Source: Chloroflexota bacterium (GTDB taxonomy: Bacteria; Chloroflexota; UBA6077; FW602-bin22; JACPRP01). From it: DNA of 64,000 nt. Below the pieces are notes generated by a model. The model did no database searches, was not told where the DNA came from, and saw only the letters and a program-made list of their open reading frames with translations. This document shows, in pieces, positions 9,141-11,490 of the stretch. Every line of letters begins with the position of its first letter. Positions within the stretch are counted from its first letter, which is position 1. The DNA lies in NCBI GenBank assembly GCA_023480885.1, contig JAMCWX010000049.1:1-64000 (forward strand), written 5' to 3'. The position numbers and the translations under genes were made by a program.

Positions 9141-9170
9141 TTGACACAGCAATCTGCCATGTGTTATCAT
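9141..9170 (+). promoter_or_regulatory. Sigma70-type promoter
   Basis: TTGACA (9141-9146), 18-nt spacer, TATCAT (9165-9170), immediately upstream of the T-box-like leader. Confidence 0.65.
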
Positions 9171-9189
9171 CGACACCGAGTGAATCACC

Positions 9190-9285
9190 AGGCGATGACG
9201 GGGAGTAGTAAGGCCATCACTACCTCCAGAGAGCCGAGGGACTGGTGCGAACCCGGCAGGGACGATTGCCCGAACTCGCCCCAGA
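9190..9285 (+). promoter_or_regulatory. T-box-like leader, stem I with putative CUC (Leu) specifier
   Basis: GATGACGGGGAGTAGTA...CAGAGAGCCGAGGGACTGGTGCGAACCCGGC...GAA-CTC-GCCCCAGAGC; matches remembered T-box stem I sequence pattern. Confidence 0.65.
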
Positions 9286-9297
9286 GCAGCATAGTCT

Positions 9298-9327
9298 CCC
9301 GTCCCTTCAGGGGCGGGTGTTTTGTTA
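9298..9327 (+). terminator. Intrinsic terminator in the ilvC leader
   Basis: CCCGTCCC-TTCA-GGGGCGGG 8-bp stem (one G-U) followed by TGTTTTGTT. Confidence 0.75.
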
Positions 9328-9395
9328 CTCCGCCCATGCCGTCTGGCAACTGAACTAATTCGAAGTAACGTGAGGAGGATCAGGAGCAAGGGACT

Positions 9396-10391
9396 ATGGC
9401 TAGTAAAATGTACTATGATTCGGACGCTGACCTGGGTATTGTTGCCAAGAAGACGATCGCCATCATTGGCTACGGAAGCCAAGGCCACGCGCACGCCCTC
9501 AACCTCAAAGATAGCGGCTGCAACGTAGTAGTAGGCCTTTACAAAGGCAGCAAGTCGTGGCCAGAGGCCGAGAAGGCTGGCCTGACGGTGAAGACAGTGG
9601 ACGAGGCTGCTAAAATGGCAGATATCATCATGATGCTCGTCCCCGATCAGGTCCAGAAGCAAATTTACTACGAGTCGATTGAGAAAGGCATGGCCGAGGG
9701 CAACACCTTGATGTTCGCTCACGGCTTCAACATACACTACAACCAGATCGTTCCCCCATCCAACGTGGATGTAATTATGGTTGCCCCAAAAAGCCCAGGC
9801 CATATGATGCGAAGGGTTTACACCGAGGGCAATGGAGTGCCTTCGCTGTTCGCAGTTTACCAGGACGTAAGCGGCAAAGCCTGGAACACGGCGCTAGCGT
9901 ATGCCAAAGGCATCGGCTCGACCAGAGCCGGAGTGCTGGAGACGACCTTTGCCGAGGAGACTGAGACGGATCTATTCGGAGAGCAGGCGGTCCTCTGCGG
10001 CGGCGTGACGGCTCTCATCCAGGCTGGCTTCGAGACGTTGGTGGATGCAGGATACCAGCCTGAACTGGCCTACTTCGAATGTCTGCACGAGCTCAAGCTG
10101 ATCGTCGACCTCATATACCAGGGCGGGATGAGCTACATGCGTTATTCTGTCAGCGATACGGCGGAGTACGGTGACTACACGGCCGGGCCAAGGCTCATCG
10201 ACGACAGAGTCAAGGCAGAAATGAAGAAGCTGCTGCAAGAGATTCAAGACGGCACCTTCGCTCGCACCTGGATACTCGAAAACCAGGCCGGTCGCCCCAG
10301 CTTCAACGCCCTGCGGCGCAAAGGGCAGAACCATCGGATCGAAATCGTGGGCAAGAAGCTCCGCGAAATGATGAGCTGGCTGCGCAAGTAA
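9396..10391 (+). CDS. ilvC: Ketol-acid reductoisomerase
   Basis: [91 protein letters not shown]. Confidence 0.98.
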
Positions 10392-10559: not shown

Positions 10560-11490
10560 GAAGCAGATATCCTCAGTCACGGCAATTCGGCGCTGCGACT
10601 CTTCCGAGAACAGAAAGGTTCCTGCGATTCGACGAGGCTGAGCCTCCTGCTCGCATGCCTGCCAGCCATTGCTGCCCTTATCCTCAGTCTCTTGCTCATC
10701 AATCCATTCCTCTCAGACTATGGCGATAACGCCCTTTATCTAATCCTGGCCAAATCGCTGGCCACAGGGCAAGGCTTCGTCGTCATCGGCGAGCATGGCA
10801 ACCCCTTTGATATGCTAAACCCGTACGGCTACCCCTTGTTTCTAGCGCTGCAAATGCTGGCCTTCGGCAGGGACCAGGAACTGGCAGCTTTGGTGTACCC
10901 CCTGAAGTTCTCAAGCGCAATTCTCTTTGCCGGCTCGGCGCTGCTAACCTACCACCTCGCCGCAAAGCGCCAGCCTCAATCGATAGCCCTGCTGTGCTCA
11001 TTCCTGACAATCCTGAGTCCCCTCGCTCTGCGATATCCCAGGGTTCCTGTTCCCGCACCTATTCGTCTTGCCCAATCTAAATTCGCTTCCAACCCAGCGC
11101 ATTGTCGAACTACTCGTTCTTTCTCTCCTCGCCGCGGGCTGGATTGCAATGGTAAGAGCAGGCCCCCACCTGGCCGAGATCTACATCCCGGTCTCCGTCG
11201 TCGCCCTATCAGCCTGGTGGCAAATCGATAGGTTTCTCGTTCCGCTCCTTCCGTTCCTGATGCTGTATCTTGCAGTCGGAATTCAACTGCTTTCTGTTGC
11301 CATCGCGGATGTTATCAACGCGGGTATGACGATGCCTCAGGTAGGGGCGCGATTTATCGCGCCCGGGGAGCCCTGTCCGCCCCTGAACTCCCTCTGCGAG
11401 AGGGCTAGGGTGAGGGCTCGTGCAATGAATTCGCCATTAGATTCCACAGTGATGTCGCTGAAGCCATATCTCATGTACGCTTATGTGTAA
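10560..11490 (+). pseudogene. Degraded ArnT/PMT-like membrane glycosyltransferase
   Basis: N-terminal part FLSDYGDNALYLILAKSLATGQGFVVIGEHGNPFDMLNPYGYPLFLA and C-terminal part LSAWWQIDRFLVPLLPFLMLYLAVGI lie in different frames with the middle apparently missing. Confidence 0.65.
11341..11432. repeat. Intergenic palindromic repeat cluster
   Basis: GGGCGCGAT-TT-ATCGCGCCC (11345-11364) followed by ctccctctgcgagagggctagggtgagggc. Confidence 0.6.

Follow-up and report, generated by a model that had tools for sequence, protein, structure and literature searches.

An ilvC leader from a Chloroflexota genome that probably derives from a leucine T-box by loss of its antiterminator region

The UGGNACC-bearing antiterminator (discriminator domain) is regarded as essential and is common to all known T-box riboswitches (PMC7583486). 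This domain, built from stem III and the antiterminator, reads the aminoacylation state of the tRNA and is in competition with the terminator (PMC7583486). Here, we analyzed an ilvC leader in a 64,000-nt stretch of Chloroflexota DNA (hereafter, the window), which belongs to a metagenome-assembled genome (G000; 88.7% complete, 76 contigs) and in which a leucine-type Stem I runs almost directly into a terminator.

The leader lies on the (+) strand and begins with a sigma-70-like promoter (TTGACA-N18-TATCAT with a TG before the −10 box; 9141–9170), whose two boxes (9141–9146 and 9165–9170) match 11 of the 12 consensus positions; the same promoter is found upstream of the ilvD T-box of a sister genome, G001. 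Next comes a complete T-box Stem I (9192–9287), which is covered by a match to the Rfam family RF00230 (9186–9293) and has homologues in ten leucine T-boxes of related genomes. Both the RF00230 alignment and the Stem I sequences of these relatives identify the distal AG-bulge motif CAGAGAG (9227–9233) and the GGUG of the distal loop (9244–9247), while the leucine specifier CUC (9275–9277; cognate tRNA-Leu(GAG)) sits within GAA-CUC (9272–9277). Stem I ends 10 nt before an intrinsic terminator hairpin with an interrupted U tract (9298–9325), consisting of an 8-bp stem (9298–9317; 7 G-C pairs) followed by UGUUUUGU. Further downstream are a ribosome-binding-site region, GTGAGGAGGAT (9370–9380), identical to that at the ilvN-ilvC junction of G001, and the translated reading frame of an intact ilvC (ketol-acid reductoisomerase, 331 aa; 9396–10391). 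An earlier sequence-only reading had already placed the promoter, the Stem I landmarks, the GAA-CUC specifier and the strong terminator at these same positions. On the 3′ side of ilvC (10692–11490), a membrane-protein-like frame seems to be split over two overlapping frames, i.e., a possible frameshift or decayed gene, and its first part has no Pfam match.

A 501-nt scan with RF00230 returned 43.6 bits (E = 2e-8), a Stem I signal far above chance. The leucine-type T-box Stem I assigned from the sequence alone is supported. However, the alignment comprises Stem I only, with ~112 model positions (stem II, stem III and antiterminator) skipped and 2 nt in their place. Although the score falls below the RF00230 gathering cut-off of 93 bits, the cut-off alone is not decisive, since full-length T-boxes score 84 to 92 bits in three other G000 leaders and 73 to 120 bits in relatives, several from this class (73 to 92 bits) also falling under it. 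The anomaly is, therefore, the missing half of the T-box and not the sub-threshold score. A cobalamin riboswitch, which had been raised as an alternative, drew no Rfam match up to E = 10, and nothing credible came from other Rfam families.

Measured against the features that define a T-box, the leader has Stem I with its distal-loop motifs and specifier codon, a terminator of the class I type upstream of an amino-acid gene (the 8-bp hairpin at 9298–9317, with ilvC starting at 9396) and a cognate tRNA in the same genome (tRNA-Leu(GAG), on G000:C31), so that Stem I could still meet its ligand. An antiterminator with a UGGNACC bulge is absent between the specifier and the terminator and, because this one defining feature was tested and found missing, we do not file the leader as a functional T-box. 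Specifically, there is no exact UGGNACC within 9177–9395, and the sole site with one mismatch is TGGCAAC (9344–9350), beyond the terminator, as the first inspection had recognized. In comparison, UGGNACC occurs 86 to 168 nt 3′ of the specifier in all ten leucine T-boxes from related genomes. Likewise, the terminator arm CGYCCC lies 19 nt after the specifier in the window versus 110 to 192 nt in nine relatives' leucine T-boxes (L015 has no such motif, and L011 has an additional copy at 42 nt). Being a single base off UGGNACC, TGGCAAC might suggest a normal T-box whose antiterminator is located elsewhere, e.g., around this site. We consider this highly improbable, given that TGGCAAC lies downstream of the terminator and lacks the GGG-UGGNACC-GCG flanks, while the G001 antiterminator precedes its terminator. 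The discriminator base of tRNA-Leu is A, giving an expected 3′ end of ACCA, to which the UGGC of this site is mismatched. We judge the resemblance to be due to chance.

Relatives' leaders sharing this Stem I were obtained by a DNA search of 61 genomes, among which the closest was that of G001, where the homologous leader precedes ilvD-ilvB-ilvN-ilvC-leuA (gene names from translated sequences). The two leaders align in two blocks: 151 nt comprising the promoter and Stem I are 78% identical, and 31 nt corresponding to the first terminator in the G001 ilvD T-box are 87% identical (E = 3e-6). Between these blocks, G001 has 119 nt with a UGGUACC antiterminator inside, whereas the window has 6 nt, which places the putative deletion junction at 9290–9297 (119 nt of the sister leader, G001 L111 314 to 434, replaced by 6 nt). 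Apart from the leader and ilvC, no flanking synteny was found between the window and G001, and the fourfold degenerate sites of the two ilvC genes are only 37.5% identical, i.e., close to saturation. Together, the homology of promoter, Stem I and terminator, the absent middle and the solitary, intact ilvC, as shown by this comparison, point to a leucine T-box remnant that arose by deletion, is uncoupled from tRNA sensing and acts as a constitutive, leaky attenuator, a reading to which we assign a probability of about 0.77. In this scenario, a deletion of ~119 nt would have removed stem II, stem III and the UGGNACC antiterminator, joining Stem I directly to the terminator and, along with this, ilvC would have been split off from an ilvD-ilvB-ilvN-ilvC-leuA operon. 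The simplest history would be one in which the middle of the T-box plus ilvD, ilvB and ilvN were lost between the leader and ilvC. In support of this reading, orthologues of ilvD, ilvB, ilvN and leuA were not found in the 88.7%-complete assembly, which holds only 32–37% identical relatives of ilvB and leuA, although ilvC is intact.

The truncated leader is documented by one genome, a MAG, with its junction known from the assembly, so the junction has to be weighed against an artefact in which the true leader is a normal T-box and metagenome assembly skipped its middle together with the following genes. Such an error would fit the incomplete, fragmented state of G000. A second G000 leucine T-box, L005 (G000:C40:69-187, minus strand; specifier CUC), ends at a contig edge and may precede the missing ilv/leu genes; because of this cut and the incompleteness of the assembly, those genes may sit in an unassembled piece. 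On the other hand, the assembly has one copy of this leader, the two G000 leucine leaders have just short words in common (by eye), and the junction is internal to a 75-kb contig in which the leader passes cleanly into the ribosome-binding region of ilvC that G001 also has. We, therefore, regard an assembly artefact as unlikely.

Next, we explored the distribution of the truncated layout. Searching for Stem I and the specifier with a terminator arm nearby, we found no case beyond G000 among 29 class-level and 400 phylum-level (Chloroflexota) genomes, although divergent truncated cases could escape this pattern, as it required AGAGAG and CGUCCC exactly. The few other matches were not T-box-like and were about as rare as those of a reversed-pattern control. 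The sequence-only reading had proposed a compact, degenerate or mechanistically different tRNA-Leu-responsive element. Our results favor the degenerate option and lend no support to a different mechanism: the layout is confined to G000 and is explained by the 119-nt deletion relative to the ordinary T-box of the sister, and no alternative antiterminator was above chance or energetically competitive with the terminator. As a separate observation, leucine T-boxes of this class often consist of one Stem I followed by two tandem antiterminator-terminator modules (L007, L008, L010, L011, L012, L016 and L140–L146), with the second UGGNACC ~88 to 188 nt past the first; a strict pattern was positive in 7 of the 29 genomes. 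'Partially tandem' T-boxes, whose mode of action is unknown, have been mentioned in general terms (PMC7583486).

Between the window and the sister, Stem I differs at 17 positions. Taking the commonest base among nine other leucine Stem I sequences as ancestral, the window has kept the ancestral base at 10 of these and acquired a derived one at 2, with the remaining 5 unclear. Both window-derived changes, one from G to C and the other from G to A, disrupt pairs that are intact in the sister, producing a C·U mismatch in the middle helix and an A·C mismatch in the distal helix. The Stem I arm of the window also displayed the lowest predicted stability per nucleotide among the nine that were folded, and its native fold lies 11 kcal/mol above the minimum free energy (MFE) structure of the window leader. 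We take the latter as weak support for decay, since Stem I contains non-canonical motifs that energy minimization by itself assesses poorly. Since the synonymous sites of ilvC are nearly saturated, selection acted on Stem I during most of the period after the split from G001. The good conservation of Stem I and the promoter despite this saturation, along with the 10 ancestral positions, weighs against the remnant reading and implies either that the truncation is recent or that Stem I is still selected. A truncation that is genuine would probably be a recent event. Independently, a Stem I segment (9200–9214, GGGGAGUAGUAAG) is complementary, with ~13 pairs, to the sequence immediately 3′ of the terminator (9320–9336, UUUGUUACUCCGCC), probably by chance; G001 seems to have a weaker counterpart (by eye). 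The MFE pairing between these segments was set aside, as it requires RNA that is made only after read-through and as overall folding was no better than that of shuffled sequences (z = 0.21).

A further alternative is a reduced element with a substitute antiterminator and inverted logic, in which GAGGGAC in the distal arm of Stem I (9236–9242) pairs with GUCCCUU in the 5′ arm of the terminator (9301–9307), and tRNA-Leu, charged or not, would stabilize Stem I, block this pairing and thereby favor termination. Before the 3′ arm of the terminator has been transcribed, this 7-bp helix accounts for most of the predicted ensemble (P of about 0.9), and the window-specific A at 9237, which breaks the distal stem, participates in it. 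However, helices of at least 7 pairs arise in 58% of dinucleotide shuffles (11% if only Watson-Crick pairs are counted), the terminator ensemble is favored over the alternative fold by ~8 kcal/mol, and the completed terminator forms with P = 0.99. With a helix that is not above chance and a more stable terminator, nothing supports a switch via this pairing. We consider an inverted switch very unlikely.

Under the preferred reading, i.e., a deletion-derived remnant, aminoacylation sensing and antitermination in the known way would be impossible, because stem II, stem III and the UGGNACC antiterminator are missing. Stem I may continue to bind tRNA-Leu(GAG), yet such binding would have lost its means of causing antitermination. 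Alongside this vestigial tRNA-binding arm, the terminator would then act as a constitutive, partly leaky attenuator that ends transcription whatever the charging state of the tRNA. The interruption of its U tract (UGUUUUGU) makes some read-through likely, and this would give basal expression of ilvC that does not depend on tRNA. For such a remnant, the importance lies mainly in annotation, with the suggestion that, once an operon has broken up, a T-box deprived of its sensing half can survive as a simple attenuator. In addition, many T-boxes of this Chloroflexota class fall below the Rfam cut-off and are missed by it. Were the leader still tRNA-responsive, it would be a case of T-box output in which the supposedly universal domain for sensing aminoacylation plays no part. 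No description of an exact fusion between Stem I and a terminator was found in the literature searched, which took in few subscription T-box papers.

Among known systems, the window leader most resembles the class I (transcriptional) leucine T-boxes (RF00230) of ilv/leu operons, with which it has in common the promoter, the Stem I motifs, GAA-CUC, an intrinsic terminator and a downstream gene for branched-chain amino acids. It is directly homologous to one of them, the ilvD leader of G001, but lacks stem II, stem III and the UGGNACC antiterminator. A reduced architecture is also seen in class II (translational) and short-Stem-I T-boxes; however, in these it is Stem I that is shortened and the discriminator that is retained (PMC7583486), whereas the window leader has lost the opposite half and has a terminator. 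Finally, the degenerated T-box upstream of some MFS-family transporters (PMC2494555) is likewise decayed and located 5′ of an amino-acid-related gene, from which the window leader differs in that its putative loss is a defined one, i.e., a deletion by which Stem I became joined to the terminator.
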